Below are positions 3,525 through 62,427 of a DNA stretch of 64,000 bases, piece after piece. Source of the DNA: a virus; the IMG/VR virus record IMGVR_UViG_3300025401_000027, positions 1 through 64,000 of that record. One strand, written 5' to 3'. A model generated the notes under the pieces. The model worked only from the letters and a program-made list of their open reading frames with translations, ran no database searches and had not been told where the DNA came from. The position numbers and the translations under genes were made by a program. Within the stretch, counting starts at the first letter, position 1. The number at the start of each line of letters is the position of its first letter.

Positions 3525-3558
3525 ATATTATAAATATGTATTAAGTTTAATTATTTTA

Positions 3559-31947: not shown

Positions 31948-31977
31948 CAAATATACGAAATAATTTTTAATTACCAA
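31948..31977 (-). promoter_or_regulatory. Bacteroidota-type promoter giving a leaderless start
   Basis: TTG (31977-31975) and TATATTTG (31955-31948) are 19 bases apart on the minus strand. The -7 element ends five bases before ATG at 31942. The promoter overlaps the stop codon region of the hub gene. Confidence 0.75.
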
Positions 31978-43489: not shown

Positions 43490-46144
43490 TTAGCTTTTAA
43501 CTAAACCAGGTTTACCAGAAACAGATGTTTGAGTAGCCTGGTTAACTAATCTTGATATATTTCTGATAAATGATGGGTCATTTATCAATTGAGTACCCAA
43601 TTCTTGAGTTATATTATTACCTAATTTTAATTCAATTGAGCCATTTATTTTTAAATCACCTAATTGTACATTTAAATTACCTGGTAATGAATTAATAGGT
43701 GTTGATGGTGCGTTAACTTGTTGTGAACCCAATACTCTAGCTAAATCTTTATTACCATTAACATTAGTACCAGCAATCATCGTACCATCATTAACCTTCA
43801 TAAATTTATCGTTAGGATTAAATACAACCCCATCATTAACCTCACCAATTTTATTACCAATATATGAACCAGCTGAAGAACCAAGTGTTGAAAAAAGTGG
43901 GATTAATTCTGGTTGTGCTAATAAAAGAGCACCAATAGTACCTAAAGCACCACCAGCTATCGCACCAAATGTACCACCTTTATTAGCTTGTTTTCCACTA
44001 GTCATCTCATAAGCACCACTACCTAAAAGACCACCAGTTACAGTACCACCAATAGCACCTAAAGTACCTTTTGCAACGTTACCAATTTTAGATATTACAC
44101 TAGTAGATGCTTTTTCAACATTTTGAACACTTTGTGTTGTAACCCCACCAACTTTATTAATTGTATTTGTTCCAGTTTCTCCTATATCGTTACTAATATT
44201 TGTAACATTTCTAGCAGCTTGACCCTCAGCAAATATCATACCTTCTTGTTCAGCTGTTGTAGCTGCATTAGCGGCACTAACACCTAAACCACCACCTACA
44301 GTAGGGCCACCACCACCACCACCACCACCACCAGTAAGGCTAATTAAATTATTTTTTTTCATTCCAAATAAAAACCCTTCAGAAAGTAAAACTCCATTTT
44401 CAATCCATTGTCCAACATCTGAAAGAGCCTTTACCATATTACCACCAAGAAAAACACCAGCAATTAATTTCCAATTCTCTACAACAAATGAAAATACTTT
44501 TCCAACTGCCTTACCAAAACCAATTATCGCTTCTTGAAAACCTTTATCACTTAACGTATCGGTTAATTTTTTAAACCCATTTGAAATACGTTTCATGTTT
44601 TCATCTGTTAAAAATCCTTTAGCAAAATCAACTTTAAATTTATTAATAATCCCATCAATACTCTCATCAAAACTTTTTGAATTTTCAGCCAACTCCGAAA
44701 GAGTTTTTTGTCTATTCATTTCATTAATAAGTTGTTGCTTATTTAAATTTTTAATATCTTTAGTATCACCATTAATATTTAAGGTTATTACACCATTTTT
44801 ACTAATTTGTGCTTTATTAGCTAAAAATTCTTCTAAATCTTTATCGGGTTCACCAGAAAGACTAATTCTTTTTTTAATTTCGTCTAATTTTAATTGGTTT
44901 CTACCCATAGTAACAATCTTATCATATTCAACACCAGTAGCCTTAGCAGCCTCTCTAAGTCTTGACATCTCATATGTGTTCATTTCTATACCATTCTTAC
45001 CAAAATGCATTGAAGATTTTGCGGCATCAGCAAAATCTTGAGTTAATCCTTCAACATCATTACGTGCTTTATACATTAATTTGAATGGGTCTGCCAAACT
45101 TGATAAACTACCACCCAATACTTGTAATTGGGCTGACATTTCAACAGCACCTTCAATATCAAAAGCCTTATCAGCCATTGGTTCAATTGTTTTCATCTCA
45201 ATTCCCAATTTATTAGCTGTTTCAGCCATTTTAGCTAAACCTTTGGCACCATTTTTAAAATCATACTTATTTAACATATCCATATTATTGGTTATGTCGT
45301 TAAGTATTTTTTTAGGTTTAAGACCTAATTTTCTAGCTTCTTGATAAGTATCTTGGGTAAAATCACGAGCATCTTCAACTGACATACCTAATTTATCAAA
45401 ACTAGCCGCCAATTTTATTACGGCTTCTTCACCTAAACCAGTACCTTGAGCCATTTGAGTCATAGCCACTAACCCCTTTGAACCAAGTTCAACAGACCTA
45501 CCTAATTCATCACTGAATTCATTTTGCATTTTGGACATTTGTTCAATGTTACCACCAATTTGTGAAGTTTGGTCAACAGCATCGAAAAAATTACCTCTAA
45601 AATCATTGGCTTTATCATTAAAAACACCTAAACTTAATGCTGATTTTTTAATAGCTTTATCTATTTCAAAAACACCACTATTTTTAATCATACCAAAACC
45701 AGACATCATTAAATCTGGTATTTTTGCAAGTATTTTACCTGACATTTGAAGACCTAAATTCCATTTATTAATAGAATCAAGACCTTCTTTAATTTCATTA
45801 TTTTGCTCCTTTAAATAATTTATTTGTTTAATTAACTGAGAAATCCTTTCATTGTTTTCCTCTTTATTTTCTTTATTTAATTTTAATAATCTTTCTTCTA
45901 AAAAATTAATTTCAGTTTGTGTTTTTTTCCACTTTTTAAGATACTCTAAGTATTCTGAACTATCTTTTTTAATTGAATCTTGAACATCATGAGTTTCTCT
46001 AAGTATCCTAACATACTTAGCTGCACTAGAACCCCATTCGTCAATTATTTTACTTAATTGTTCCGAATTTTGTAAATCTTTACTATTTGGTACAATTTTA
46101 CCACCATCATTACCACCACTATTATTTTTTTCGTTAACTGCCAT
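43490..46144 (-). CDS. Tail tape-measure protein
   Basis: The protein has 884 residues. The first 130 residues are charged coiled coil (EERLLKLNKENKEENNERIS). The middle is helical with many MAQ, AAS and FADAAKS segments. Residues about 600-610 contain nine consecutive glycines. Residues about 680-770 are Gly/Ala-rich and hydrophobic (GALGTIGALLLAQPELIPLF), as in the membrane-interacting part of tape measures. It directly follows the putative frameshifted tail chaperone, the conserved position for tape measures. At about 1.5 angstroms per residue, a tail near 130 nm would be expected if the whole chain spans the tube. Confidence 0.85.
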   Translation of the reverse strand: MAVNEKNNSGGNDGGKIVPNSKDLQNSEQLSKIIDEWGSSAAKYVRILRETHDVQDSIKKDSSEYLEYLKKWKKTQTEINFLEERLLKLNKENKEENNERISQLIKQINYLKEQNNEIKEGLDSINKWNLGLQMSGKILAKIPDLMMSGFGMIKNSGVFEIDKAIKKSALSLGVFNDKANDFRGNFFDAVDQTSQIGGNIEQMSKMQNEFSDELGRSVELGSKGLVAMTQMAQGTGLGEEAVIKLAASFDKLGMSVEDARDFTQDTYQEARKLGLKPKKILNDITNNMDMLNKYDFKNGAKGLAKMAETANKLGIEMKTIEPMADKAFDIEGAVEMSAQLQVLGGSLSSLADPFKLMYKARNDVEGLTQDFADAAKSSMHFGKNGIEMNTYEMSRLREAAKATGVEYDKIVTMGRNQLKLDEIKKRISLSGEPDKDLEEFLANKAQISKNGVITLNINGDTKDIKNLNKQQLINEMNRQKTLSELAENSKSFDESIDGIINKFKVDFAKGFLTDENMKRISNGFKKLTDTLSDKGFQEAIIGFGKAVGKVFSFVVENWKLIAGVFLGGNMVKALSDVGQWIENGVLLSEGFLFGMKKNNLISLTGGGGGGGGGPTVGGGLGVSAANAATTAEQEGMIFAEGQAARNVTNISNDIGETGTNTINKVGGVTTQSVQNVEKASTSVISKIGNVAKGTLGAIGGTVTGGLLGSGAYEMTSGKQANKGGTFGAIAGGALGTIGALLLAQPELIPLFSTLGSSAGSYIGNKIGEVNDGVVFNPNDKFMKVNDGTMIAGTNVNGNKDLARVLGSQQVNAPSTPINSLPGNLNVQLGDLKINGSIELKLGNNITQELGTQLINDPSFIRNISRLVNQATQTSVSGKPGLVKS

Positions 46145-47720: not shown

Positions 47721-48611
47721 TTAAAGTAATTCTTCTTTTAATTTTTTAATAACCGATTCTAAATCATTTTTAATATCTGATTCCCAAAATCTAAGTAATT
47801 TAAAACCATTCTCAATACACCATTCAGATTTAATTTTGTCTTGAATTAAATTACCTATTTGTGCATCTGAAGTTGGTTCAGCATATCTTGAATTTGGGTT
47901 ACAATGCCAATAATCACCATCAACCTCAATTAATATTTTTTTACCTGAAATTTTAAAATCAAAAATTGCTTTAATTTTTCTAACATAAAATTGATAGTAA
48001 TAATCCTTATCAAGTTTAAAATTAAAATTATCAATTAATATTTTTTCAAATGTTTCTTCTAATTTTGAAGTTGGTGTAAAACCATTTTTAATTATATACT
48101 CCATTCTTCTATTAGATTGTTTTTCACGTTCTTCTGGATTTTCCCATCTTAATTTTGAATGTTCCTTTATTTTTTTAATATGTTCCTGACTCTTAGCAAC
48201 ACCAGTTAATTTTTTTGAGATATTGTTACCACGTTCTGGGTTTGACATAACTTTAGTAATATTATCCCTAACTCTATCGTCTTCAATTGTTAACCCTTTA
48301 TTCCAAATTGTTAGCTCACCATTCTCGTGCATTTTTTTTTGAGTTTCATGTGATTTTTTTATAGCATTAGGATTATGTCCCCAATTGTTATTTACCCTAG
48401 AAGCATGACCTAATTTATAATCCCTAAAACCAACTTCAACACCTAAAAATTTAGGTTTTTCATTACAACCACATTTACATTTAGGTTCAATTCCATCTAA
48501 TACATAATCAATATATGTTTGTTCAGCGGATACTTTATGTTTTTGAACACGATGTCTTCTTAAAGCATCTAACGTTTCAAACTCTCTATTACATTCTTTA
48601 CAAATTACCAT
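47721..48611 (-). CDS. Free-standing homing endonuclease 1 (Vsr/EDxHD-like, zinc finger)
   Basis: The protein has 296 residues. The N-terminus is a C2H2 zinc finger, CKECNREFETLDALRRHRVQ with a following His. The middle (about 110-180) is Lys-rich with KLTGVAKSQEHIKKIKEHSK, a NUMOD-like DNA-binding segment. The C-terminal nuclease domain (about 190-296) contains 'KAIFDFKI', 'ILIEVDGDYWHCNP' and FKLLRFWESDI, a Vsr-like PD-(D/E)XK arrangement. It is inserted between the tube gene and gp26-like gene, with its own promoter and terminator, and lies beside a fossil of a tube-gene 3' end. Typical selfish mobile gene. Confidence 0.82.
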   Translation of the reverse strand: MVICKECNREFETLDALRRHRVQKHKVSAEQTYIDYVLDGIEPKCKCGCNEKPKFLGVEVGFRDYKLGHASRVNNNWGHNPNAIKKSHETQKKMHENGELTIWNKGLTIEDDRVRDNITKVMSNPERGNNISKKLTGVAKSQEHIKKIKEHSKLRWENPEEREKQSNRRMEYIIKNGFTPTSKLEETFEKILIDNFNFKLDKDYYYQFYVRKIKAIFDFKISGKKILIEVDGDYWHCNPNSRYAEPTSDAQIGNLIQDKIKSEWCIENGFKLLRFWESDIKNDLESVIKKLKEELL

Positions 48612-48719: not shown

Positions 48720-49208
48720 CTAGAATAAAAGTATAGCTCTATCAAAACGTAAAGTTGCTGTAATTTGAGCGATACCATCATCATCCATACCTAAGTCACC
48801 GAAGCTAACGTTTGTAAGCATAGTACCATCTAAAAGCCAGTTTTCAACAACAACACCAGTCGGGTCAAGCATCTCAAGATTAACTTGACGCTTATAACCA
48901 GCGGCATAACCTTGACGACCAGTAATTGATTCAGAATGAAGACGAACCCATTCCATAAGTGCTTGTGATGCAGAAGGACCAATAGGGTCTCTAAATGTAA
49001 CGTCAATTGCTTCCCAAGTAAATCTACCAATAACCCATGTTGAAGTGTTTAAAAATTGAATTTCTGTTTCATTTTGTGTAATTGAAGGCCTAGAAGCACT
49101 TTCTAACCACCATTGTTGAATACCCAAATCAGCTGGGAAAGTTATTAACCAACGATTTTTCCTTTTAGGTTCGTATGGTAAGGGCATTTTCATTAATAAA
49201 TCTGACAT
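48720..49208 (-). CDS. gp19: Tail tube protein gp19
   Basis: The protein has 162 residues, matching T4 gp19 (163). The N-terminal segment MPLPYEPKRKNRWLITFPAD, the WWLESASRPS motif and a beta-rich C-terminus with GIAQITATLRFDRA fit tail tube proteins. Hexamer rings of this protein stack to form the inner tube. Codon and base composition are less AT-biased than flanking genes (for example several CGC/GGT codons), as expected for a highly expressed major virion protein. It is followed by a fossil of its own 3' end and a homing endonuclease. Confidence 0.9.
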   Translation of the reverse strand: MSDLLMKMPLPYEPKRKNRWLITFPADLGIQQWWLESASRPSITQNETEIQFLNTSTWVIGRFTWEAIDVTFRDPIGPSASQALMEWVRLHSESITGRQGYAAGYKRQVNLEMLDPTGVVVENWLLDGTMLTNVSFGDLGMDDDGIAQITATLRFDRAILLF

Positions 49209-49367: not shown

Positions 49368-52300
49368 TTAACTAAACATTATTTTTTTAATTCTTTCTAT
49401 ATTTTCTTTCACACTCTTATTTTCTTCCATCCATTCTATATCATTTGATATTTCTGATTTTTCTGGATTTCTATTCGGATTTGCTTGACCAGCTGGTTTA
49501 GCTTGTTGTACTTGTTGTGGTTCTTTATTTTGTTGTGCTTGTGGTTCTTTATTTTGTTGTGCTTGTGGTTCTTTATTTTGTTGTGGTTGTGCTTGTGGTT
49601 TTTGTGAACCAGAATTACTTGTTTTTTTACCAGAATTTAATTTACCACTATCCTTTAATTTATTCATATATTGGAACAAATTAATTGTTGTTGATAAGAA
49701 CTTAACCAAATTATTTTTAAATGAACCTCTATTTTGAGCATCTTTTTTAAATGATTTATTTGGTTCTTTAAAATTATACCCAGCTTCTTCTTCCAATGAA
49801 TTTATACTTCCACCGATTCCAGCCATCTTATCAATCATGTTACCATATTTGAATTTACCAGAATAAACCGTAATAAAAATATCATCAATAAAAGCCTTAA
49901 GCGCATTTACAGCTTGTGGATTATTAGGGTCTATTGAGAATAATTTTTGAAAATCAGTTGACATAATTGGGTTTGAACTATATTCAGACATAAAATTTTG
50001 AATAGCCTTATCACCCATTGGGTCAATCTTTTTAATTTTATTCCTGATTATTTCAACTCTATTCATAAAGTCTTCAAACGATTTTAATTTATCGTATGAT
50101 AGGCTTTTCTGTAAAAATTGAATAAGTCTCTTATCTTTTATGTACTTACCTTCATTAAGACTTGTACTTGGTGTTAGTTTTATTGTCTTAATAGAAATTT
50201 GATTACCATTTTGAGTTTTAACAATTGTTTCATTTGGGTTTTGACTTGGTCCAACAATTGTTCCAGTAGTATTAGAACCATCCTTTTTGGTCCAACTAAC
50301 CTTTTGACCCTTCACAAGTTTATCAGCATTAGCTGTACCAACATTATTAGCAGAACGAACACCTAAATTTTTTCTATTATTAACAACAAATTTAAATAAA
50401 TTTTTAATAGAATTATAAAGGTCATCATTAACTTGTGACATCTTATTGTCACCACCCTTTTGCGTATCAGCATTAGCTACGTTAGCACCTTTATCACCAC
50501 CTTTATCACCACCATTATCACTACTAGCTATATTACTTAATTCTTGTGGATTTGATACAGCATCAACACTTACTGTTTCTGTTTCTGGTTCAACTAAACC
50601 AACACCACCATCTATGTTTCTTAATGATTGATACAAGTCGTTAAGAGTTTTAGCCCTTGACTGTTTTTGGCCTTTCATACGCATTATTTTAACTAATGCA
50701 CCCGTACCCACAGCAGCTAAACCAATAGGGCCTAGAATGGCTCCTAATCCCTTCGCAGCAGCATATCCAGCACCAGTCTTAATAGCTGTTTTCATAACTA
50801 GTGTTGGTACTGCTTTAGTAATTGTAGTAGATATAAGTCCTTTTACTTGGCCCATGTCCTTACAAGTAAGCATATCACCCACTGATTTACCAGTACCAGC
50901 CCATTTTCCTTTAAATATTTGACCTAGAGTATCACCATGACCATGTGGATTTTTTGCTATATCAGTCAATACTGATTTAGCGGCATCTGGATTAACAAAT
51001 ATACCACCTTTAGCTGCTAAAGCATTAATACCAGCATTTACGTCACCACCACCTAGTATTTTAACTTGTTCTAAAAATTGTTCTGGTGTTGTTTTAGGTG
51101 TTATACCAGCATGGTTCATCGCATTCATAAGTTGAGTAAGACCTTGACCTGGTTTTATATTACCAATAATATCTGAATTACTAGCAACCTGTTTGTTAAC
51201 CATTTCAATAGATGGATTTTTACTAACGACATCAAATAAGTGTTTAAACCAATCTGTATTAACAAGCCAACTAAAAGCACCCAAACTAGCACCAATACCA
51301 GCAAGTGTCATTGGTAATTTATTTGATTTAAGTGTATTCATTCTAGTACTAGCAAAATCATCACCAGCACCTCTTTTAGCTTGTAAGCCAGCTCTAACAT
51401 CCTTAGCGTTTAAACCTTGTTTTCCACCACCAGCTGCACCACCACCAGCAGAACTAGCAGCTGCACCATTCCCAATACCACCAGCAGAACTAGCAGCTGC
51501 ACCATTCCCAATACCACCAGCAGAACTAGCAGCACCACCATTTGATGCTTGATTATTTGGTATATCCTCGTAATCAATATCTGTTATATCTTTATTTCTA
51601 GTACTAGCCTTACCAGTACCTTTATCTATAATATTACTATTATTAGTGTTGGCAACACCAGTATTTTGATTAGTTGTAGCAACGCCAGTATTTTGATTAG
51701 TGTTGGCAACGCCAGTATTTTGATTAGTTGTAGCAACGCCAGTATTTTGATTAGTGTTGGCAACGCCAGTATTTTGATTGGTTGTGGCAACTTGTGAATT
51801 TGCTTTAACTGGTCTGGTATCATTTGGATTTAAATCAATTGGTTTTGATATGTCTTCAGGTTCACCTTTAGCATATATATCTTCTGGATTTGGTTTTTTT
51901 CTTATACCACTTGGACCATCTTCTTCATCTAGGCCCCAAGCTTCATCTAAGCTCATAGCTTCTTCTTCTGTTAATTCAAGAGTATTACCTTGAATCTCAT
52001 CAACAACTGAATAAGCTGCCTTTAAATCAATATCTAAAAATTTCTTAACATAATCTCTAAGGTCATTAATAATACCATTAGCAGCGTCTGCTGGTATTGT
52101 ACCTTTCTTAGCACCATCGATTACAGAATCATAAACAGCTGCAATTTCCATTATAGTATTTAAGAATTGGTCACCTTTTTCGTTATTAGGGAATTCTGGA
52201 TTAGTTTCTTTAATACTAGCATTTAAATTCTTGATAAGTTCATTACCTTCTTTATCAATAATTGCTTGAATTTTAGCACCAGCTTCTTTGTCTATTTTTC

Positions 52301-52493
52301 CCTTTCCAAAAATTTTACCATTAGCTTTATATCTACCTAATTTTGAAAGACCATATTTAACTTTTTCCCATACACTTTCATTTATGGTACCATTTTCATT
52401 AATTAATTCATTGGTGTTTGTAACCATTTCTGATACAAGATGATTCATTAATTTTTCATGTTGTTCAGTTGTTAACAATATTTTTGTTGCCAT
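49368..52493 (-). CDS. Large repeat-bearing protein, possibly internal or tail virion component
   Basis: The protein has 1041 residues. Residues 1-200 are helical (LLTTEQHEKLMNHLVSEMVT). Residues about 230-290 contain five copies of the nine-residue unit NQNTGVA(T/N)T. Residues about 315-355 have 12-residue Gly/Ala/Ser repeats. Residues about 555-615 are hydrophobic and Gly/Ala-rich (AAKGLGAILGPIGLAAVGTG) and could insert in a membrane. The C-terminus is low-complexity Gln/Pro/Lys with an NKEPQAQQ repeat, ending in a helical tail. Its position between sheath and tube genes and its own late-like element suggest a virion protein, perhaps ejected. Function is unknown. Confidence 0.55.
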   Translation of the reverse strand: MATKILLTTEQHEKLMNHLVSEMVTNTNELINENGTINESVWEKVKYGLSKLGRYKANGKIFGKGKIDKEAGAKIQAIIDKEGNELIKNLNASIKETNPEFPNNEKGDQFLNTIMEIAAVYDSVIDGAKKGTIPADAANGIINDLRDYVKKFLDIDLKAAYSVVDEIQGNTLELTEEEAMSLDEAWGLDEEDGPSGIRKKPNPEDIYAKGEPEDISKPIDLNPNDTRPVKANSQVATTNQNTGVANTNQNTGVATTNQNTGVANTNQNTGVATTNQNTGVANTNNSNIIDKGTGKASTRNKDITDIDYEDIPNNQASNGGAASSAGGIGNGAAASSAGGIGNGAAASSAGGGAAGGGKQGLNAKDVRAGLQAKRGAGDDFASTRMNTLKSNKLPMTLAGIGASLGAFSWLVNTDWFKHLFDVVSKNPSIEMVNKQVASNSDIIGNIKPGQGLTQLMNAMNHAGITPKTTPEQFLEQVKILGGGDVNAGINALAAKGGIFVNPDAAKSVLTDIAKNPHGHGDTLGQIFKGKWAGTGKSVGDMLTCKDMGQVKGLISTTITKAVPTLVMKTAIKTGAGYAAAKGLGAILGPIGLAAVGTGALVKIMRMKGQKQSRAKTLNDLYQSLRNIDGGVGLVEPETETVSVDAVSNPQELSNIASSDNGGDKGGDKGANVANADTQKGGDNKMSQVNDDLYNSIKNLFKFVVNNRKNLGVRSANNVGTANADKLVKGQKVSWTKKDGSNTTGTIVGPSQNPNETIVKTQNGNQISIKTIKLTPSTSLNEGKYIKDKRLIQFLQKSLSYDKLKSFEDFMNRVEIIRNKIKKIDPMGDKAIQNFMSEYSSNPIMSTDFQKLFSIDPNNPQAVNALKAFIDDIFITVYSGKFKYGNMIDKMAGIGGSINSLEEEAGYNFKEPNKSFKKDAQNRGSFKNNLVKFLSTTINLFQYMNKLKDSGKLNSGKKTSNSGSQKPQAQPQQNKEPQAQQNKEPQAQQNKEPQQVQQAKPAGQANPNRNPEKSEISNDIEWMEENKSVKENIERIKKIMFS
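49505..49585 (-). repeat. 24-base coding repeat (NKEPQAQQ), about three copies
   Basis: The plus strand shows ttctttattttgttgtgctt repeated at 24-base spacing. It encodes a Gln/Pro/Lys-rich low-complexity linker near the C-terminus of the 1041-residue protein. Confidence 0.75.
51440..51545 (-). repeat. 36-base coding repeat (GGIGNGAAASSA)
   Basis: Two full copies and a partial copy of a 36-base unit, nearly identical in sequence, encode a Gly/Ala/Ser linker in the 1041-residue protein. The near-identity shows recent expansion. Confidence 0.8.
51645..51793 (-). repeat. 27-base coding repeat (NQNTGVA), five copies
   Basis: Five tandem copies of a 27-base unit alternate between two versions (ATT and ANT), making a 54-base higher-order repeat. 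It encodes an Asn/Thr/Gly linker and is likely variable in copy number. Confidence 0.85.
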
Positions 52494-52520: not shown

Positions 52521-52958
52521 TTAGTAAAATTTAAAGTCTTTGAATTTTTCTAAAACGAATTCTCTTACTGATTTTTCATCATAACCAAGTAATATTCCTA
52601 TCCTATAAACTTCTTCTGGTTTTGCGAATAAACCATTAAAATTAGTTTTACCTGTTGATGGTAAGAAACCACTAAATTTTCTAGCAATATTAGCTAACTC
52701 TTGAGCTTCAATCTCATAACCATCGTTATAAAATACATAAGCGTTATTCATGTTAATTGGTATGTATTTTAAACCACTTTTTTTTAAATCATTAATATCC
52801 TTCTCACTTGCACCACCGTAAAATCCAATATTTCTTTTTTTATTAATTACCATTAGTAGTGATTTTTCATGGTTATTAGCTTCTTCAGGGTCAATTGTTT
52901 CTAATATGTGGTTTTCAATAATCTTTAATTGACTTTCTTTTATTATGAGTCTTTTCAT
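52521..52958 (-). CDS. Unknown protein between the sheath region and the 1041-residue gene
   Basis: The protein has 145 residues and begins MKRLIIKESQLKIIENHILE. This N-terminus is similar in style to that of the 1041-residue protein (both with a short 'ES/EQ...' helix), suggesting a common targeting or assembly peptide, but that is inference. The middle contains KSGLKYIPINMNNAYVFYND, an alpha/beta fold. A TATTTATT element overlaps the region just before ATG. No function is recognised. Confidence 0.55.
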   Translation of the reverse strand: MKRLIIKESQLKIIENHILETIDPEEANNHEKSLLMVINKKRNIGFYGGASEKDINDLKKSGLKYIPINMNNAYVFYNDGYEIEAQELANIARKFSGFLPSTGKTNFNGLFAKPEEVYRIGILLGYDEKSVREFVLEKFKDFKFY

Positions 52959-53029: not shown

Positions 53030-53077
53030 TTAAACATTGTCAAATGATGCACCTGAGTTCATGATTACAAATTGAAT
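53030..53077 (-). pseudogene. Fossil 3' end of a sheath gene, overlapped by endonuclease 2
   Basis: Reading the minus strand in the sheath frame gives IQFVIMNSGASFDNV and stop, against IQFVILPSGASFDNI and stop at the end of the live sheath gene. Third-position changes dominate. Similarity continues 13 bases past both stops (TTAGCACAATAAA). The endonuclease frame ends inside this fossil, with its stop TGA at 53042-53040. Confidence 0.8.
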
Positions 53078-54596
53078 TTCTAGTCCATTCAAATTTCATA
53101 TTTCCACAGTCCCATATTCTATCAAATTCCTTTAATTTCATAATCTCAAATTCAGACATGTTTTTATCAAAACCTTCTTTAACTAGAATATCTTTTCTAA
53201 AATTATATCTATGATATCTATGATTATATTGTCCAACTTTTAAGTACCAATAATTTGGTGATGTATTTTTAATATACTTAAAACCATTTTTTATATAAAC
53301 AGTATCTAATTCATTTAATCCAGACCATCTAATATCAGCGTAAGTTACAATTTTTTTAGGTTTATATGTTACAATAAAATGTTTTAAAAGTTTAGAAAAC
53401 CCACCAACAACATTAGAATTTATTAAATTACAAAATCTAACCAATTCATAAGTATCCTCAGTTTCTATATTACCTAAAGCTTTTCGCTCTTTACCAAATG
53501 TCATTAATGAAATTAATATATTATTATAATATAACCCTAATCTTATTAAATCAATAGAATTTCCTTGAATATGATTATTATCTAAAAATAAAGTAGATTC
53601 TTTTTTACTTACAATTCTAATTTCACAATTTCTTGCAAAGTATCTTATATTATTTAAATTTAACTGATTACTCAATCTAGATAATACTATGTCTTTTTTA
53701 TATAGTATTTCGTCTTCAAATATGTGTATTAATTTTATATTTTTTTCATGTGCTAATTTTGTTTTACTTAAATGATATTTACTATCTTTTTCACCACTTA
53801 TTTCACTATGAAAATAATTGCCGTCTACCTCTATACCTAAATTAAAATCGCTCAAGAATATATCAATCTCTTTACCGTTAAGTATTTTTCTACTGTTATC
53901 TAAGTGTTTAATATTTTTTAAATTTAAAAAATCCTTTATTACTTCTTCAATTTTTGAATTTTTTTCTAACGGTGTACATTTTCTACAAATTGGTATCTTA
54001 CCAGAACCAAGCACGGTACTTGAAAATATATTTTCACACTTTTTACATTTAAAATTATAAGACATTGATGTTGAACCACTTTTATTTACACTGTATTCAT
54101 CAAGTAATATTATATTATGTTCATTAAGTTTTGGTAGTAAGTTTTTAATTTGTTTTTCATTCAGAGTTTTTTGTAGTTTATTTACAATTAACTTATCTTT
54201 CATCGGATTTATAACACCTATTTTATCTAAGAAAATTTGATTACGGTTAGCTTTATATTCAATTTTCTTAAACATTGAATCAACACCATGATTTATTAAT
54301 AATGTATCTTTACTTAATTTTATTCTATTAGACTTATTTTCTTCTATAGAGTTCCATTCTTTTCTACACTCATTAGAACACATTTTATTTTCTTGTTTTT
54401 TCTTACACTCAAATTCTTTATTACAAATTAAACAAATTCTTTTTTCCCTTATTTCTTCATCTATTTTTCTACCAATAGTTTTATGCTCTTTAGAATATTC
54501 AAAAAAACACTTCCTACCACAAAACTTCTTACTTCTATATTTAAACTCCGTTTCAAAATCATTATTACAGTTTATACAATTTAACTTTATTTTCAT
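53040..54596 (-). CDS. Free-standing homing endonuclease 2 (zinc-finger, Vsr-like nuclease)
   Basis: The protein has 518 residues. Three zinc-binding Cys clusters occur: CINCNNDF...FCGRKC at the N-terminus, CLICNKEFECKKK...CSNEC, and FKCKKCENIF...ICRKC near 190-220. The nuclease core near 225-310 has 'KIEEVIKDFL', KEIDIFLSDFNLGIEVDGNY and KLIHIFEDEI, a PD-(D/E)XK/Vsr-like set. The last 200 residues contain NNHIQG...LMTFGKER...VRFCNL..NVVGGFSKLL, a domain often attached to phage homing endonucleases. About 15 terminal codons are written over the fossil sheath end in another frame. It has its own promoter and a terminator on each side. Confidence 0.82.
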   Translation of the reverse strand: MKIKLNCINCNNDFETEFKYRSKKFCGRKCFFEYSKEHKTIGRKIDEEIREKRICLICNKEFECKKKQENKMCSNECRKEWNSIEENKSNRIKLSKDTLLINHGVDSMFKKIEYKANRNQIFLDKIGVINPMKDKLIVNKLQKTLNEKQIKNLLPKLNEHNIILLDEYSVNKSGSTSMSYNFKCKKCENIFSSTVLGSGKIPICRKCTPLEKNSKIEEVIKDFLNLKNIKHLDNSRKILNGKEIDIFLSDFNLGIEVDGNYFHSEISGEKDSKYHLSKTKLAHEKNIKLIHIFEDEILYKKDIVLSRLSNQLNLNNIRYFARNCEIRIVSKKESTLFLDNNHIQGNSIDLIRLGLYYNNILISLMTFGKERKALGNIETEDTYELVRFCNLINSNVVGGFSKLLKHFIVTYKPKKIVTYADIRWSGLNELDTVYIKNGFKYIKNTSPNYWYLKVGQYNHRYHRYNFRKDILVKEGFDKNMSEFEIMKLKEFDRIWDCGNMKFEWTRNSICNHELRCII

Positions 54597-54716: not shown

Positions 54717-57700
54717 TTAAATGTTATCAAATGATGCACCTGATGGAAGTATAACAAATTGAATTTGAATGAATTCTAACGCTGTTGTTGGTTTAAGGAA
54801 TATTTGACCAGTTAATTGATTATTATCAAAATCTTCTGGGCTATTATTTAACACAACTCTAAAATCAGAAAGACCTCTTTCGCTTCTAATGTTATCCAAT
54901 ATTGGGTTAACAAGTGATAAGAATTGATTTCTAACCACAGCATCATTTTGTTCGAACAACAATCTGATTGAAACAGCAGAAATAAGTTTTCTTGCTTGTA
55001 ATAAAAGTCTTCTAATGTTGATTCTATTAAGATAAGTATCAGCAACTTGAAGTGTTTTATTACCCCAGATATTAACACCATTTGAAGCAAATGTTGCGAT
55101 AGGATTAATTCTATTTTCATAAAGTGTATCCCTATCTGTTTGCGTTAATTTAACTCTAGCTTTAATACAATCTACCGAACCTCTGTTAACACCAGCCACA
55201 GCAAACCATGGGAATGAAATGTTATCAGTTAAAGCGATATTTCTTACAACATCTCTTGTTGGTGGAACATATATGTATGTTGTGTTTTCAGAATCAAATA
55301 TTTGAACCCAAGGCCAATACGTTGCTGTATAGTTACTATCAAAATTACCATTAAGCTCATCAACCACATTTGAAACCGTCAATGGAGTACCAGTAGAATC
55401 AGAATCTGGTGTTGTAACTATGTACAATGAGTCAGCTCTGTTATTCTCAACCATTTCAATAGTTTGGTTAACCAATGATTGGTTATCGAAAGTATCAATA
55501 CCTGGTGTTGCAAACACATTTATATTAGCTTCAGGATTTATAAATGTCCAAATACCTTCTAAATATGCGTAGTAATCTGATGTAAGACCTTCTGAACCAT
55601 CTTGAAGAGGATACTTAGAAAATGCTCCATAACTTAAACCAGTTTGACCACCCTTACCCTTAATATCGTAAGTGTCCAAGTTCGTTCTTCTTGTTCTATA
55701 AATGTCCCAACCATCGAAACCACCATAAGGTACAAGTGTAAATTTACGAGCATATAAGTTTGCGTATGGCGTACCTTGAACACCAGCTTCACTTTGGAAT
55801 GGTGCGTCACCAGTATCAAATTTAAATATTGGGTTATAAGTCGCTCCAGAACCACCATTTATGTATTCAGCAATATCAGCAATTGTTACCGCACTAGCAT
55901 TAATATCCATGTGATAACCTGGTGTAAGTCCAGTCCATTCGCTATATTCTAAACCTTTTATTGGTAAACCTTTGTAATCAAAGAAGTCTGTATCGATACC
56001 AACAGTATCATTTAAACCTAAATAGAATTTACGTGGGTTATCATATGTACCGTAAGCCTTATAATACATAATATCTGGTGTTAATACACTATCATTACCA
56101 CTAGTTTGGTAATCTCTTACTGGGTACCCAACAAAACCAGCTGGGAAAGCATCAGTTGTATCTGAGTTCACATCTAATTCAACAAGTACGTAAGAAGATT
56201 TTGACGCATAAGCACCATCATATGTACCAATTAATTGACCAATGTAATTATTTGAAGTTGGGTCTAAATTACAACGACTATAAGCTTCTAGGATTTTAGG
56301 TCTAGCATCTGTATCGTTATAATCTCTAATTTGTACATCAAATTCTTGAGTATCAGGTCTAATATTAGCAATTGAAACTTTAATTTCCATATTAGCCATA
56401 TTACCATCTGATATTGTCCAGAATCTAAATAATCTAATAACTTGGTTACCCTTAACTTCCGATACCACATATGGGGTAACAGCAGATTGATATTGTTGTA
56501 AATAGTTATCAAATGGACCAAATTCACCTGGTGAAGAGTAATTAATTAAACTTTGGTTAATACCATAAATTTTACCTTCATTAAAGTCATTAGTAAATAC
56601 ATTACCGTAAAATTCCTCAACGAATACTGATGTCTTTTTATCAAAAGCCATTCTACCTAATGCTCTAGGAACGTAATCTTTTTTAGTAACATCAAATGAA
56701 AGTTCATAATTAAATATACCTTGCGTTACAGATGTACCAGTCAAATTAAATATACCTAAAGGATTTTTTGTTGCACCAGTTGCAGTTGAACTAAAGTTAA
56801 TATCAGTTACATTAGCAATTTGGAATGTTGGTAATTGAGTTGATACGTCAACCGTAGCCCTAGAACGTAAAAGTGCTATTATCTTTCCTTCAACATCCGA
56901 ATAACCACTACCAGTATAAGCGTAACTTATACCAGTTGTTAAACCAGTTAAATCACCAGCATTATCACCATAGTAAGTATAGCTACTACCACTTGTAGAA
57001 CCAGTAATACTACTATAGAAACCATTATATGTTAATGTGACATTATTTGTTGTACCAGTTAAGTTTTGATAATAACCACTATATTGTGTTGTAATACCAC
57101 TTGTAGAACCAGTAATTGATTGGTAATTACCAGTGTATGATTGACTTGTACCACTTGTTGAACCAATTAGTAAAGTATAAACACCACCACTAATTATAGT
57201 TGTACCACTTGTTGAACCAGTAATTGATTGGTAAATACCAGTGTTAACACTACTAGTACCAGTCATATTATATTGAATACTTTGATATGAACCAGAATTA
57301 GTTCTACTTGTACCACTTGTTGAACCAGTAATTGATTGGTAAATACCAGAGTTAACTGTTGTTAAACCACTAGTAGAACCAGTTACAGATTGATAATAAC
57401 CTGTAGTACTTACAGTTAAACCAGTTGTTGTACCAGTAATATTATATAATGTAGTATTTATAGTCGTATTCCCACCAACACCAACAGTAATGTTATTATA
57501 AGCAATCGCATAACCATTAGTGAAACCACTTGTTGTACCTGTAATATATTGACCAGTTGTACCAGTTTGCGTTACCACATAGTTTTGTGAAAGCATATAA
57601 ATGTCCATGTAACTAGTATAGTTAGGGCTATATTGTAACCAATCAATATTATAATTAAGTGTTAATGATTGACCTGGAGATAAAAGACCAAAACCATTAA

Positions 57701-60700
57701 AATAGTAAGGACCATAATTGTAGAAAAATGTTGTACCAGAATTAGACGCTGGAATATTTATAGCAACAATATTACCATTACTTGAGTTAGCCGTATACGT
57801 AAACGTATTACCAGTATAATTAAATAATGGGTTTGTAAATGAACCAGATGGTGTTATACTATTAATTGTTGTTAACATATTTCCACTAGTAGCAACCGCA
57901 CCAACTTGTGTTTGAGGTACATTTACAACATAACTAGAATTGTTATTTGCTGAATATATAAAACCAAAGCTACTAGCTGAGTATGTTGAATATATTTGAT
58001 TAGCAATTGGTGTACTAAATGTTGGTGTACTAATAATTGTGTGGTTTCCTAAATTAACTGCGTAAGTACCAGTAAATGAACTAATTGTAGTTGCACTAGA
58101 TGGACTTGTATAACCAGTCGAAACTATATATGCGCTAATATTTGCACCACTATAATTAATACCATTTGGTGTGTAAGTTGTTGCTAAGTTAACTGTTGTA
58201 CCTGTAGCTGTTGAAGATATTACGTTAAATATATTAGGATTTACACTATATGTACTATTATACAATGGTGTTGAACCACTAGTTGTGTAAAGTAAATTAC
58301 TTGAATTAGCCGAGAACGTTGCTGTATAAGCTGATGTACTAACAGTTGTACCACTTGATGGGTTTGTATAACCAGTTGAAAGAACACTTAAATTAAGTGT
58401 ACCACTACTATAGTTAATACCATTTGATGATTGACCTATTGTTACAATTCCACCTGTACCACCAGTTAAGAAGTTAAACGCACTTGGTGTAGTTGCATAA
58501 GTTGAGTTATATAAACCTGAACCAGCACCAACTGCACTTGTTGAATAAAGAGTATTACCAGTACTTGCTGAGTATACACCAGTAAACTGTGTAGTTGCTG
58601 TTGTTGCACTAGATGGGTTTGTATAACCAGTTGCAAAAGCAACTATTGTTACAGTATTTGCACTAGTAAAATTAGCACCGTTAGACGATGATGGCGCATT
58701 TACAACTGAATAAGTACCACCAGTTGCTAAGAAGTTAAATGCACTTGGTGTAGCCGCATAAGCTGAGTTATATAAACCTGAACCAGCACCACCAGTTGCA
58801 CTTGTTGTATTAAGTGTACCACCAGTTGTTGCAGAGAATGTACCATTAAATACTGAAGTAGATGCTGTTAAACTAGATGGGTTTGTATAACCTGTTGAAA
58901 GTACACTTACTGCAATACTACCACCAGTAAAGTAAGCACCGTTATTTGATGTTGGACCAGTTATAGTACCAGTACTAGCAGTATTTAAGAAAGTAAACGC
59001 TGAAGGTGATACTGAACCACTAAAATAAGTAACATAATTTGGGTTACCATATACATTAGTCAATGCGTAAGAAGATACAACACCATTTAAATTTGTTATG
59101 TAATTACTTCCAACACCAACTGTTCCAGCTGTATTTACACTAGATGGACTTGTAAAACCAGTTGAAAGTACATTTACACTTACATTACCACCACTAAAGT
59201 AAGCACCAATTTGTGTGCGTGTTATAGCAATATTACTTGTTGCACCAGTATTAGCTGTTGCTAAGAAGTAAAAAGGAACTGGATTAGCAGCGTAAACTAA
59301 GTTATATATTGAATTATTAAGACTATATGTAGAATAAAGTATACCATTAGTACTAGCTGAATATACAGCGGTATATCCAGAAGTTATAGCACTTGTTACT
59401 GGTGTTGTATAATTTAATACATTAATATTATAATTAATACCACTATAATTAAAATTAATTCCGTTTGGAGCATAAGCTGTAGCTAAAGAACCAGTTGAAT
59501 TTAATGTAGCACCAGTTAAGAAGTTAAAGTTACTTGCACTAGCAGCATAAATTTGATTTGTTATTGCATCCGTTGATACAAAACTACTAAGTGTATTTGC
59601 TGTGGTTGAAGCTGTATATGAGAATAGAGCATTACCACTAGTATCTGGGTATATATTTGCATTACCAACAGCTGTTATATTACCACCATTTGTATAACCA
59701 GTTGCATATGGTGTAATAGCTAATGTATTGTAACTATAAAGAATACCGTTATAAACATTTGGGGTTTGTATTGTTTGACTAACACCACTAGCTATAAAGG
59801 TAAATGCTGATGGATTTTGTTGATAATATTGATTATATGCGTTAGCACCACCACCAGCAGTTGCTGTTGTTGAATAAAGTGTATTTCCAGTACTTGCTGA
59901 ATATGTACCAAAAAATTGTGATATAGAATTACCAGTTAATATGCTACTAGAGTAACCAGTTGTAGCAACATTAATTGTTATATAACCACCACTATAGTTA
60001 TTACCACCATATAATAATGTTGGTTCAGTTAAAATTTGTTGTGTACCAATTGTAGCACCAGTTAAGAAATTAAAACTACTTGCACTAGCAGCATAAATTT
60101 GATTAACAAATGAATCAGTAGATGTTATACCATAAAGAACATTACTATTTGATGACGCAGTATATGTAAAATTAGTTGGTGAACTTGCTGAAACAGGTAT
60201 TGATGCATCTGTATAACCAGTTGAAAGAACTTTTGAATTAATATTACCACCATAGAATGTTGTACCATCTGATGTTTGTGGTATTAGTATATTTTGTGCT
60301 GTACCAGTTGCTGCTGTAATAAATAAATTAAAATAACTAGGTGTTGCGGTATAAACTTGATTAACAAATGAATCAGTAGATACAATTGAAGTAAGAGTAC
60401 CACCTGTTGTAAGTTTATAAGTTAATAAAGTTGATGAACCAGAATTTGGGTAAATATTTGTTACTGTACCAGCAGTAATAAATGGTGTAACACTGGCAGA
60501 AATAATATTAAATGTAATATAACCACCACTAAATATAAGACCATTTTTAACTTGTGGTATGTATATTGTATAGCTTTGCCCAGTAGTTGCACCAGCCAAA
60601 AAGCTAAATGCTGATGGGTTTTGTTGATAATAAGCATTTAAATTACTATCAGTTGTTTGGATACTATAAAGAGTATCACCAGTAGTAACTGTATAATTTG

Positions 60701-61094
60701 CTGTATAAGTTGAAACATATGATGTACCAGTTGTTGTCGGGTCTAATGCCGCACTAAGCGTGATACCCCAAGCTAAACCAGCATGGTATCCAGAAAGACC
60801 CAATATCCTTGTTACGAATAACTGATTTGATTGAGATAAGTAAGATTTTGCAATGTATGGTAACTCATACAATGGAGCACCATTACCATCTGGTCCATTT
60901 ACTAATGTATTATCTAACCCCCCAAAAAATGTTTGGAAGCCACCATAATCACTAATGAAAATTGGTTGAAAAGCTGGTCCTTTTGTTGTTTCACCGACCA
61001 ACCCTAATGTTGTAACACCTACTTGACGGGTTACATATGTTAGGTCTAATTCTGAAGTGTAAACACCTGGACTAACGAATACTTGATTTGCCAT
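54717..61094 (-). CDS. gp18: Giant tail sheath protein (gp18 type) with a huge repeat insertion
   Basis: The protein has 2125 residues, against 400-700 for usual sheaths. Residues 1-115 are a normal sheath N-terminus (VFVSPGVYTSELDLTYVTRQ, then SQSNQLFVTRILG). Residues about 120-1080 hold eleven or so diverged repeats of 75-95 residues marked by '(P/S)SAFNFL' and 'LSTGYT'. Residues about 1180-1393 hold about eleven 18-residue repeats around YQSITGSTSG. Residues about 1400-2125 return to sheath sequence (ALLRSRATVDVSTQLPTFQI to the conserved C-terminus ...PSGASFDNI). The insertion is Ser/Thr/Gly/Asn rich, free of cysteine and should project from the sheath surface. The upstream genes are glycosyl- and sulfotransferases. 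Confidence 0.9.
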   Translation of the reverse strand: MANQVFVSPGVYTSELDLTYVTRQVGVTTLGLVGETTKGPAFQPIFISDYGGFQTFFGGLDNTLVNGPDGNGAPLYELPYIAKSYLSQSNQLFVTRILGLSGYHAGLAWGITLSAALDPTTTGTSYVSTYTANYTVTTGDTLYSIQTTDSNLNAYYQQNPSAFSFLAGATTGQSYTIYIPQVKNGLIFSGGYITFNIISASVTPFITAGTVTNIYPNSGSSTLLTYKLTTGGTLTSIVSTDSFVNQVYTATPSYFNLFITAATGTAQNILIPQTSDGTTFYGGNINSKVLSTGYTDASIPVSASSPTNFTYTASSNSNVLYGITSTDSFVNQIYAASASSFNFLTGATIGTQQILTEPTLLYGGNNYSGGYITINVATTGYSSSILTGNSISQFFGTYSASTGNTLYSTTATAGGGANAYNQYYQQNPSAFTFIASGVSQTIQTPNVYNGILYSYNTLAITPYATGYTNGGNITAVGNANIYPDTSGNALFSYTASTTANTLSSFVSTDAITNQIYAASASNFNFLTGATLNSTGSLATAYAPNGINFNYSGINYNINVLNYTTPVTSAITSGYTAVYSASTNGILYSTYSLNNSIYNLVYAANPVPFYFLATANTGATSNIAITRTQIGAYFSGGNVSVNVLSTGFTSPSSVNTAGTVGVGSNYITNLNGVVSSYALTNVYGNPNYVTYFSGSVSPSAFTFLNTASTGTITGPTSNNGAYFTGGSIAVSVLSTGYTNPSSLTASTSVFNGTFSATTGGTLNTTSATGGAGSGLYNSAYAATPSAFNFLATGGTYSVVNAPSSSNGANFTSANTVTIVAFATGYTNPSSATTATTQFTGVYSASTGNTLYSTSAVGAGSGLYNSTYATTPSAFNFLTGGTGGIVTIGQSSNGINYSSGTLNLSVLSTGYTNPSSGTTVSTSAYTATFSANSSNLLYTTSGSTPLYNSTYSVNPNIFNVISSTATGTTVNLATTYTPNGINYSGANISAYIVSTGYTSPSSATTISSFTGTYAVNLGNHTIISTPTFSTPIANQIYSTYSASSFGFIYSANNNSSYVVNVPQTQVGAVATSGNMLTTINSITPSGSFTNPLFNYTGNTFTYTANSSNGNIVAINIPASNSGTTFFYNYGPYYFNGFGLLSPGQSLTLNYNIDWLQYSPNYTSYMDIYMLSQNYVVTQTGTTGQYITGTTSGFTNGYAIAYNNITVGVGGNTTINTTLYNITGTTTGLTVSTTGYYQSVTGSTSGLTTVNSGIYQSITGSTSGTSRTNSGSYQSIQYNMTGTSSVNTGIYQSITGSTSGTTIISGGVYTLLIGSTSGTSQSYTGNYQSITGSTSGITTQYSGYYQNLTGTTNNVTLTYNGFYSSITGSTSGSSYTYYGDNAGDLTGLTTGISYAYTGSGYSDVEGKIIALLRSRATVDVSTQLPTFQIANVTDINFSSTATGATKNPLGIFNLTGTSVTQGIFNYELSFDVTKKDYVPRALGRMAFDKKTSVFVEEFYGNVFTNDFNEGKIYGINQSLINYSSPGEFGPFDNYLQQYQSAVTPYVVSEVKGNQVIRLFRFWTISDGNMANMEIKVSIANIRPDTQEFDVQIRDYNDTDARPKILEAYSRCNLDPTSNNYIGQLIGTYDGAYASKSSYVLVELDVNSDTTDAFPAGFVGYPVRDYQTSGNDSVLTPDIMYYKAYGTYDNPRKFYLGLNDTVGIDTDFFDYKGLPIKGLEYSEWTGLTPGYHMDINASAVTIADIAEYINGGSGATYNPIFKFDTGDAPFQSEAGVQGTPYANLYARKFTLVPYGGFDGWDIYRTRRTNLDTYDIKGKGGQTGLSYGAFSKYPLQDGSEGLTSDYYAYLEGIWTFINPEANINVFATPGIDTFDNQSLVNQTIEMVENNRADSLYIVTTPDSDSTGTPLTVSNVVDELNGNFDSNYTATYWPWVQIFDSENTTYIYVPPTRDVVRNIALTDNISFPWFAVAGVNRGSVDCIKARVKLTQTDRDTLYENRINPIATFASNGVNIWGNKTLQVADTYLNRINIRRLLLQARKLISAVSIRLLFEQNDAVVRNQFLSLVNPILDNIRSERGLSDFRVVLNNSPEDFDNNQLTGQIFLKPTTALEFIQIQFVILPSGASFDNI
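56915..57560 (-). repeat. 18-residue (54-base) repeats in the sheath insertion
   Basis: About eleven tandem copies encode a unit like YQSITGSTSGTxxxxxG; the core SITGSTSG recurs nearly unchanged while the linker varies. Third-codon changes between copies show moderate age. Confidence 0.85.
57880..60720 (-). repeat. Long (75-95 residue) repeats in the sheath insertion
   Basis: About eleven diverged copies share the order 'LYST', 'Y....PSAFNFL', '..G..YSGG.(I/L)...VLSTGYT'. Boundaries are approximate. Residues with beta propensity and Ser/Thr dominate, as in Ig-like decoration domains. Confidence 0.8.
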
Positions 61095-61183: not shown

Positions 61184-61612
61184 TTAAATTGATATTAATT
61201 TTGATGACTCTTCAGGTGTTTTTGCTGTTGTATCGATATCTATAAAATTAAATAATGGTGGTTCATAATCACTTACATGGAAGTTTTCCCTACCTCTAAT
61301 TTCACTTGTATGTATATAATATTCTTTAATATCTTCACCCATTTTTTCCTTAAAACGTTCTCTTTGGTCCCTGTATGGGGATACCATTGCAACGATAACC
61401 GTTTTAAAATTATCATTAATGTAGTAAGCTAAATTCTGAGCTAATTCAATATTTTCTCTTCTACCTTTTTCAGAATAGTCTTGATTATTGAATAATTCCC
61501 TTAATTTATCACCATCAATTAAAAATGCGTTACTAAATTCTTTTCTTTTTAATAACTCCTTTCCTATTGTTGTTTTACCAGAACTTGGCTGGCCAGTTAA
61601 CCAAATTATCAT
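61184..61612 (-). CDS. Adenylylsulfate (APS) kinase-like protein
   Basis: The protein has 142 residues, shorter than typical APS kinases (near 200). Walker A is GQPSSGKTT at 7-15. 'FLIDGDKLRELF' at 30-41 and the YSEKGRRENIELAQNLAYYI helix at 46-65 match the APS-binding and DGD..R motifs; SPYRDQRERFKE at 78-89 matches the family SPYR motif. APS kinase makes PAPS, the sulfate donor for sulfotransferases. Its ATG overlaps the stop of the sulfotransferase gene (ATGA). A bare P-loop kinase of another specificity remains possible because the family C-terminus is truncated. Confidence 0.75.
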   Translation of the reverse strand: MIIWLTGQPSSGKTTIGKELLKRKEFSNAFLIDGDKLRELFNNQDYSEKGRRENIELAQNLAYYINDNFKTVIVAMVSPYRDQRERFKEKMGEDIKEYYIHTSEIRGRENFHVSDYEPPLFNFIDIDTTAKTPEESSKLISI

Positions 61613-62427
61613 TTGTATCTAAATTTATCGTTATACCATTTATAATTATTCATTATCCAATCACAAACATCCTTACCTAGAATTTCCTTAGCTTTAGATG
61701 TAACTGGTTCAAGTGTTGTTCTGATAGTATGGTCACCATACACACCATAAACTTCATCATCTTCTTTTGTTATTTGTTCGATATTATCAAAATCATGTTT
61801 AAAATATGGAATATCTAAATAAGCATATATCTTACCTAGAGTTTGTTCTGGATAAAGACACAAGTCTTCAAATCTTACAAAATGAATTTTACTATCAATA
61901 CCCATTCTAATCATTTCACCTAAACGTTCAAATGCCATACCAACTGGTGGATTTTGAACCCACATATCAATACGCTTAGGTGTCGTTGTTCCTTGCATTT
62001 TACTCCAATCAACCAACGGACTTGCTTTATCACTAGCTTTTCTAAAGTTTTTTTCCATTGATGTAAATATATCCCTAGGGTCCCTAACCATACATATAAT
62101 CTTTGGGTTACCATGTATAAGGTTTAAAAAATCATAATGAATTCCCCACCCTCTACTCTTATCGATAACATACTTTTTATCCGTAATCCCATTATAAAAT
62201 CCATACATACCTTCTTTACAAAAGTTAAGGAATCCTGATTTCATCAATTCAGGGTCTTGTGCTTTAAACTCAGGTGATGAGGTGTAATTACCTCTAGCAG
62301 CAAAAATTAATTCAAGAACACCAGATGTTGGTGTCGCGTATATATCTGGATTTTGTGCTAAAATGTTTTGTAATAGAGTTGAACCCGCACGAGGCATTGA
62401 ACTCTGATAAAATATTTGTTCTATCAT
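61609..62427 (-). CDS. Sulfotransferase
   Basis: The protein has 272 residues. The 5'-phosphosulfate-binding loop is SSMPRAGSTLLQ at 9-20, and the 3'-phosphate motif is ICMVRDPRDIFTSME at 111-125, both canonical for PAPS-dependent sulfotransferases. A C-terminal WIMNNYKWYNDKFRYK helix ends the domain. The gene is translationally coupled to the APS kinase-like gene, so donor synthesis and transfer are encoded together. The acceptor is unknown; a glycan or tyrosine on the virion or host surface is plausible because two glycosyltransferase genes precede it. Confidence 0.85.
   Translation of the reverse strand: MIEQIFYQSSMPRAGSTLLQNILAQNPDIYATPTSGVLELIFAARGNYTSSPEFKAQDPELMKSGFLNFCKEGMYGFYNGITDKKYVIDKSRGWGIHYDFLNLIHGNPKIICMVRDPRDIFTSMEKNFRKASDKASPLVDWSKMQGTTTPKRIDMWVQNPPVGMAFERLGEMIRMGIDSKIHFVRFEDLCLYPEQTLGKIYAYLDIPYFKHDFDNIEQITKEDDEVYGVYGDHTIRTTLEPVTSKAKEILGKDVCDWIMNNYKWYNDKFRYK

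Follow-up and report, generated by a model that had tools for sequence, protein, structure and literature searches.

The sheath gene and its insert

The window analysed here is a stretch of 64,000 nucleotides from the IMG/VR virus record IMGVR_UViG_3300025401_000027 (68,850 bases in all), and on its minus strand lies an open reading frame (ORF) that encodes a tail sheath protein of 2125 amino acids (aa) in which the conserved N- and C-terminal parts are separated by a long insert made largely of tandem repeats. The gene and its parts are the following.

54717..61094, minus strand: tail sheath gene, 2125 aa (ORF with matches to PF04984 and phrog_23)
60759..61094, minus strand: sheath N-part, residues 1-112, conserved core (identity to the N-parts of relatives L293-L296; alignment with the N-terminus of T4 gp18)
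56907..60749, minus strand: insert, residues 116-1396, 1281 aa (composition and mass; boundaries from relatives)
57825..60710, minus strand: eleven family 1 units, each 81-95 aa long, spanning residues 129-1090 (periodicity; homology to the single-copy domain of relatives)
57561..57824, minus strand: segment of 88 aa between the families, residues 1091-1178, which may be a last unit that has diverged (33% identity to unit 2 of relative L296)
56913..57560, minus strand: twelve family 2 units, each 18 aa long, spanning residues 1179-1394 (resemblance to the strand by which relatives return to the core)
54717..56906, minus strand: sheath C-part (residues 1397-2125), which contains the sheath domain (family matches; 75% identity to L296)

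By its family matches, the ORF at 54717-61094 is a gp18-type tail sheath gene. The C-part matches PF04984 (E 2.6e-10, 40.8 bits against a cut-off of 31.4, best stretch residues 1840-2015), phrog_23 (E 1.1e-52, best stretch residues 1844-2123, with a second stretch also reported) and the solved sheaths of T4-type phages, of which 9ev2 is the best (E 5.4e-31, residues 1867-2124), while the C-terminal sheath domain PF17482 scores 18.3 bits, under its cut-off of 26.9. An earlier annotation made from the sequence alone, the original prediction, had placed a tail sheath protein of 2125 residues at this position, and both its coordinates and its length are correct. Two longer contigs, L002 (107 kb) and L003 (140 kb), each contain a single phrog_23 match place.

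The insert boundaries, residues 116-1396, are our own choice, guided by relatives. So delimited, the insert contributes 132 kDa to a sheath of 226 kDa, or 58% of the mass, and is rich in Ser, Thr, Gly, Asn and Tyr (112 Tyr, 423 Ser/Thr and no Cys), with only 19 charged residues (D/E/K/R, 1.5%) compared with 18% across the 844 remaining residues. The original prediction had put this region at about 1280 residues of repeats in two families; the size is right and both families are present, but the 88-aa segment between them had not been separated and the family 1 units measure 81-95 rather than 75-95 aa. The periodicity of each family exceeds that of all 300 shuffles, at a lag of 86 for family 1 (0.066 against a shuffle maximum of -0.156) and at a lag of 18 for family 2 (1.95 against 0.57), and the 11 family 1 units share a mean pairwise identity of 33%. 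The 88-aa segment is likewise 33% identical to the second unit of L296, although that unit fits window unit R3 better (38%). With an Ig-like fold of the units in question, Pfam gives no match in the insert at E 0.01, and the aligned repeats contain no stretch of sufficient conservation to scan with; tblastn with residues 129-1425 gives no match at E 0.01 among 50,697 records of isolated phages with the low-complexity filter on, and a viral contig scan with the same residues matches only two contigs of the window's own population.

Relatives and the origin of the repeats

Four viral scans and one genome scan yielded 264 loci (five from the genome scan, with some contigs repeated), including 228 complete sequences and 196 distinct proteins; each viral scan comprises the best 80 loci among the matches listed, so that counts are not frequencies. 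The relatives L292-L299 were found later and stand outside this survey, and L226-L230 were found with the expanded sheath L098 as query. In the close clade (at least 57% identity to the C-part; 98 distinct proteins), the median sheath length is 949 aa and the median insert 117 residues, and the inserts that were printed, except those of L098, L226-L230 and L240, hold one domain ending in one strand of the type xxTGxTSGxTxxYSGxxY. The return strand also occurs in more distant relatives, with the finding motif present in 59 of 80 loci, and the 18-residue units of family 2 resemble this strand leading back to the core. A sheath of the same family (L176; 52% identity, 939 aa) lies on a Prochlorococcus single-cell genome contig, which may hint at a host of the wider family.

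Sequence profiles connect the repeats with the single domain of the relatives. A one-unit profile built from 121 deduplicated inserts, including L100 and L232 and none from the window or the L226 lineage, finds the window sheath at E 2.8e-21 and L226-L228, with six units each, at 1.8e-51 to 4.2e-50. A profile from L015-L018 alone scores 20.1 bits for its best domain in the window insert against 6.3 for the best domain of 200 shuffles, and when the window repeat profile is applied to one-unit relatives, its scores on L015, L017 and L018 are reached by none of 500 shuffles each; on L016 the score is not above the shuffles, 43 of 500 reaching it. L100 and L232 (68% identity) carry one window-type unit and one strand, and L240 (1064 aa) carries a single clear unit together with a weak, partial match to another (independent E-value, i-E, 0.62). 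The sheath of the sister phage L296 has 1057 aa, 75% core identity, two units and two strands. Its first unit is strong (3.9e-14 with the one-unit profile), its strands align with the last window strands at 61%, and its N-part is 89% identical to residues 1-112 of the window protein, which are 79-89% identical to the N-parts of L293-L296. The E-values of the L296 gene comparison were obtained with neither composition correction nor masking, which makes them too favourable for sequence of such biased composition.

Taken together, the sequence comparisons support an origin of the insert in which two adjacent pieces, each present once in most inspected relatives, were amplified in tandem and in frame. 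The comparison of repeat number in relatives that had been proposed alongside the original prediction thus turns up relatives with one, two and six units; rather than being peculiar to a single gene, the insert is an amplified pre-existing domain. Three distant relatives (L059, L092 and L093) have inserts of 387-466 residues at the same site that contain Cys and are non-repetitive by eye, representing a different way to a large insert; at 1363 aa, L059 is the longest surveyed sheath outside the two expanded lineages. Two further relatives, L005 and L007, are 84-91% identical at the DNA level in matching pieces and have sheaths of 696 and 573 aa, with a domain difference near the same site. The insertion site may be a general hot spot.

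Position of the insert in the sheath fold

In T4 gp18, residues 24-87 and 346-510 make up domain III and residues 88-97 and 189-345 domain II; the outward-protruding domain I is formed by residues 98-188 (PMC3004832). The N-part of the window sheath aligns with gp18 to about residue 86, in a region where T4 matches the family profile weakly. The AlphaFold2 model of the one-unit homologue L015 (955 aa; mean predicted local distance difference test score, pLDDT, 73.3) has an extra strand at residues 102-112, followed by the inserted domain and then by strands returning to the C-part. The insert thus seems to occupy the position of T4 domain I and of the return from it into domain II, and the outer position given to it in the original prediction is backed by the N-part alignment and by the location of T4 domain I.

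The L015 model matches gp18-type sheaths with Z-scores of 15.6-17.9, and Foldseek points in the same direction. For this homologue, the core fold is formed from the N- and C-parts together, with a VIA-align Z of 15.9 to 3j2m over 425 residues within the model range 25-946. The unit region of the model (residues 130-234) consists of strands and one helix, with block mean pLDDT values mostly of 80-87 and one block at 67, and the fold ascribed to the window's units is carried over from it.

Two separate amplifications and their constraint

The second expanded lineage, L226-L230 together with the truncated L098, has sheaths of 1636-1643 aa that hold six units, another segment and an array of strands; the insert is the same in L227, L229 and L230. 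Units group by lineage, with a mean identity of 0.338 among window units, 0.340 among L226 units and 0.208 between the two, and the window group takes in the single units of L100 and L232. The core tree places the window and L296 as sisters (Shimodaira-Hasegawa-like approximate likelihood ratio test, SH-aLRT, 100), and the L226 lineage lies inside a ten-member group with one- or two-unit relatives (support 92). Before L296 was known, a single origin of both expansions was not rejected (p 0.075). With L296 included, a clade of the window and the L226 lineage without it is rejected (p 5.7e-44), and a single origin of both expansions that excludes L296 is thereby ruled out. The sequence data therefore support at least two amplifications of the outer domain, with growth beyond two units occurring separately in each lineage, because the clade of both expanded sheaths without L296 is rejected.

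Within the second lineage, the ratio of nonsynonymous to synonymous substitution rates (dN/dS) between L226, L227 and L228 is 0.226-0.342 for the expanded insert and 0.048-0.105 for the core, compared with a median of 0.360 (interquartile range 0.238-0.444) for one-unit inserts in 60 pairs and a median of 0.117 for their cores. The extra units of the L226 lineage are held about as firmly as a single unit. Since its dN/dS resembles that of single-copy inserts, the expanded insert of this lineage is probably folded and used.

A proposed brush on the tail and its alternatives

We regard it as fairly probable that the window encodes a sheath in which two adjacent pieces have been tandemly amplified into arms, giving a tail brush for weak multivalent contacts. 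The amplified pieces would be an outer domain of about 85 residues and a strand of about 18 residues returning to the core. Each family 1 unit would be a small folded domain, and the 11 units would form an arm projecting outward from the site of T4 domain I, with the 18-residue repeats extending the base sheet and acting as a stalk. Six arms per sheath ring would then wrap the tail in a nearly uncharged brush rich in Tyr, Ser, Thr and Asn. In the least certain steps, the brush might make many weak contacts with surfaces such as the host envelope, capsule or particles and so keep the tail near its target, and the core might contract normally, the arms being outside the contact surfaces.

Several observations weigh against this account. 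The one-unit profile detects just six of the 11 window units at i-E below 1e-3 (R1, R2, R3, R5, R6 and R10), and the second unit of L296 is weak, at 0.32 with this profile and 0.015 with the window repeat profile. Past gp18 residue ~86 the site is mapped by topology and not by sequence similarity. The AlphaFold2 model of window residues 1006-1840 is unusable (mean pLDDT 43.8), so that the structure prediction suggested with the original prediction was of no help for the repeats; a weak period-18 strand pattern in this model, at a pLDDT of about 50-60, is not used as evidence. A clade of the window, L296 and the L226 lineage is not rejected (p 0.0996), and on these sequences a shared two-unit ancestor of both lineages is possible. 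Finally, the paralogous units of the window are weakly constrained, with dN/dS values of 0.78 (R8-R9), 0.84 (R4-R9), 0.46 (R9-R10), 0.56 (R6-R10) and 0.74 (R1-R4), and 1.03 for the 18-mers.

This last result is expected after duplication, and a near-neutral expansion predicts it likewise. Under such an expansion, slippage or unequal crossing-over would multiply a tolerated surface loop, and the arms would have no function beyond not impeding contraction; tandem repeats in other genes of the same phage, and a 36-nt repeat unit whose number in the neighbouring gene 49368-52493 is not the same in L003 as in the window and L002, fit this view. The orthologous expanded inserts, however, are constrained like single-copy ones, six units are kept at corresponding places in L226, L227 and L228, and the insert makes up more than half the mass of a protein that is normally among the most abundant in the virion, and we consider neutrality a possible but unlikely explanation. 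A similarly tentative place is given to cementing, in which arms and strand repeats would pack on adjacent subunits or rings, making the sheath more stable in its extended or contracted state. The 18-residue repeats do resemble a strand that joins the core-side sheet, and stabilisation by extra sheath domains has been proposed by Evseev et al., citing phage 812 (PMC9230969). According to the same source, the additional domains of T4 were supposed to be nonessential for sheath formation, and the fast divergence of the units would be unexpected at a contact between subunits. The fast change of the units and their near lack of charge lead us to rank adhesion above cementing, on thin evidence.

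Two further alternatives question whether the insert exists as read. A simple assembly artefact is unlikely because two further IMG/VR contigs carry the gene with a one-codon difference: the sheath gene of L002 and L003 is identical in DNA to that of the window save for a 3-nt insertion (one Val) in the C-part, and the frame is open over 6.4 kb in all three contigs. The artefact named as a refutation in the original prediction was thus looked for and the same array of 11 and 12 units was found three times. All sequences are metagenome contigs, from samples that may not be independent; repeats are where assemblers fail, and the expanded L098 contig stops inside its array. Against a shorter true array having been multiplied or misjoined, the units are mutually distinct enough to permit unique assembly and a comparable array occurs in five contigs of another lineage (L226-L230), and this possibility appears barely credible. 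The insert could also be absent from the virion, as an intein-like or proteolytically removed segment. The sequence leaves proteolysis possible, but no evidence in support of removal was found; at E 0.01 the sheath has no intein match in Pfam, whereas the ribonucleotide reductase encoded in the same window matches PF14890, and relatives keep a short domain at the same site, which makes removal very improbable.

Neighbouring genes and the upstream sulfation cassette

The sheath lies in a tail module with a tube protein, two homing endonucleases, a baseplate hub and a wedge, and two possible partner genes lie upstream of it.

48720..49208, minus strand: tail tube protein, from the tail module that also holds the sheath (phrog_4542, E 2.4e-27)
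61184..61612, minus strand: adenylylsulfate (APS) kinase, directly upstream of the sheath, possible partner (PF01583, E 1.9e-17)
61609..62427, minus strand: sulfotransferase, possible partner (PF13469, E 3.1e-19; PF00685, E 2.7e-13)

Homologues of the tube protein are present in 190 of the 264 relative loci (some contigs counted repeatedly), and the closest named relatives of the tube and wedge proteins are from Microcystis, Flavobacterium and Rhodothermus phages, at 26-39% identity. The homing/HNH endonuclease genes, at 53040-54596 and 47721-48611 on the minus strand, flank the stretch from sheath to tube, and the former has matches in 51 of the 264 sheath loci. Downstream of the sheath, a 145-aa gene (52521-52958, minus strand) is found beside three of three expanded and four of 76 other sheaths, counted over the 79 close-clade proteins with at least 2.6 kb downstream, two of the four others (L020 and L279) being 5'-truncated and so possibly longer than they appear. 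No match to it is found in L296 by tblastn, and a viral scan with it matches only the window's own population. A link of this gene with expansion was considered and set aside, shared ancestry being the probable reason for the pattern.

Among other genes of the window, the 1041-aa ORF at 49368-52493 (minus strand) has several low-complexity tandem repeats, the 2094-aa ORF at 31971-38255 (minus strand) combines a tail lysozyme domain (PF18013) with a short tape-measure match, and the ORF at 43490-46144 also matches a tape-measure family, phrog_167. The large subunit of ribonucleotide reductase (20781-23552, minus strand) has an intein-like insert between its reductase stretches, with PF14890 at residues 270-624 (E 1.2e-7, below cut-off) and LAGLIDADG_3 at 475-542 (above cut-off).

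The order of APS kinase, sulfotransferase and sheath is common to the window and L296, with identities of 62.6% and 78.6%, and two further upstream ORFs look glycosyltransferase-like by eye, have no Pfam match, and include one with an L296 homologue (73%). The APS kinase would make 3'-phosphoadenosine 5'-phosphosulfate (PAPS), with which the sulfotransferase might sulfate the arms, or glycans on them, to give a polyanionic coat that repels, masks or targets the tail. This notion, which we hold to be quite improbable, has its basis in the gene order kept between the window and L296; the arms to be modified combine 112 Tyr and 423 Ser/Thr with almost no charge. It is weakened by the absence of tblastn matches to the four upstream genes in the 264 surveyed sheath loci, 147 of which have at least 2.5 kb upstream, and by the L226 lineage, in which none of four contigs, all possibly fragments, matches the sulfation genes. 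A Pfam search of 19 records finds sulfotransferase in four and APS kinase in three; those with both are the three window-population contigs, and the fourth sulfotransferase record has the gene far from the sheath. As a general cause of expansion the cassette was rejected, as the L226 lineage gives no match and L296 has the cassette yet only two units. Upstream of the cassette in L003 (1564-4449), a 961-aa gene has fibre-like repeats and a long IGGG/ISGG...N-ISG repeat region that resembles a YadA-type head by eye; in L227, three consecutive genes that look Gly-rich and adhesin-like by eye (2890-5905) lie upstream of the 1636-aa sheath.

Relation to known sheaths and biological meaning

In likeness to T4 gp18 (659 aa), the window sheath has a core split into N- and C-terminal parts around inserted outer domains, as seen in sequence and fold matches. 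The difference is one of number, T4 having one domain I (98-188; PMC3004832) and the window protein 11 units, the 88-aa segment and 12 strand repeats. The 'type 3' multi-domain sheaths of Evseev et al. (2022) carry extra domains away from the tube, more of them in larger phages, and a help in adhesion or stability was proposed for these domains; the passages and table consulted make no mention of a single domain being amplified in tandem (PMC9230969). The longest of the 153 sheaths in that survey has 1283 aa (LacPavin_0818_WC45), followed by 1248, 1086 and 1032, which fits the statement in the original prediction that no sheath with so large an insertion was known. No sheath with tandemly amplified domains is named in the top-listed titles and abstract openings of the literature searched. 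The protein is a sheath and belongs to the known multi-domain sheaths, with tandem amplification and size being new as far as these searches reach.

Filaments on contractile tails are described for the hairy myoviruses CBB, phAPEC6 and Erwinia phage Y3, where they are proposed to aid host contact (PMC5259590, PMC7247149, PMC13282480). The hairs of CBB are without an assigned gene, and those of phAPEC6 sit at three rings on a tail with a sheath of 97 kDa (PMC5259590, PMC7247149), whereas in the window the sheath subunit itself would bear the arm, in every ring, as predicted from the gene. Atu_ph07, with a sheath of 1086 aa (PMC9230969), has hairs mainly on its capsid (PMC6102473). Flagellins with large hypervariable outer regions, in which the terminal parts are the conserved core of a tube-forming protein (PMC9230969), offer an analogy only.

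The T4 tail holds 138 copies of gp18 (PMC3004832), and if the same number is assumed here, each tail would gain about 18 MDa from the inserts. Because sheath subunits slide past each other, the tolerance of the sheath for added mass bears on the mechanism of contraction. Together with the window, the relatives form a natural series in which one site holds 1, 2, 6 or 11 copies of the same outer domain, the expansion having happened separately in two lineages. If real in virions, this series would be a graded set for testing the roles of outer domains, whether in adhesion, in stability or in nothing, which are left as hypotheses in the survey of Evseev et al. (PMC9230969), and the expanded sheath would offer a display scaffold that occurs naturally on a contractile tube.

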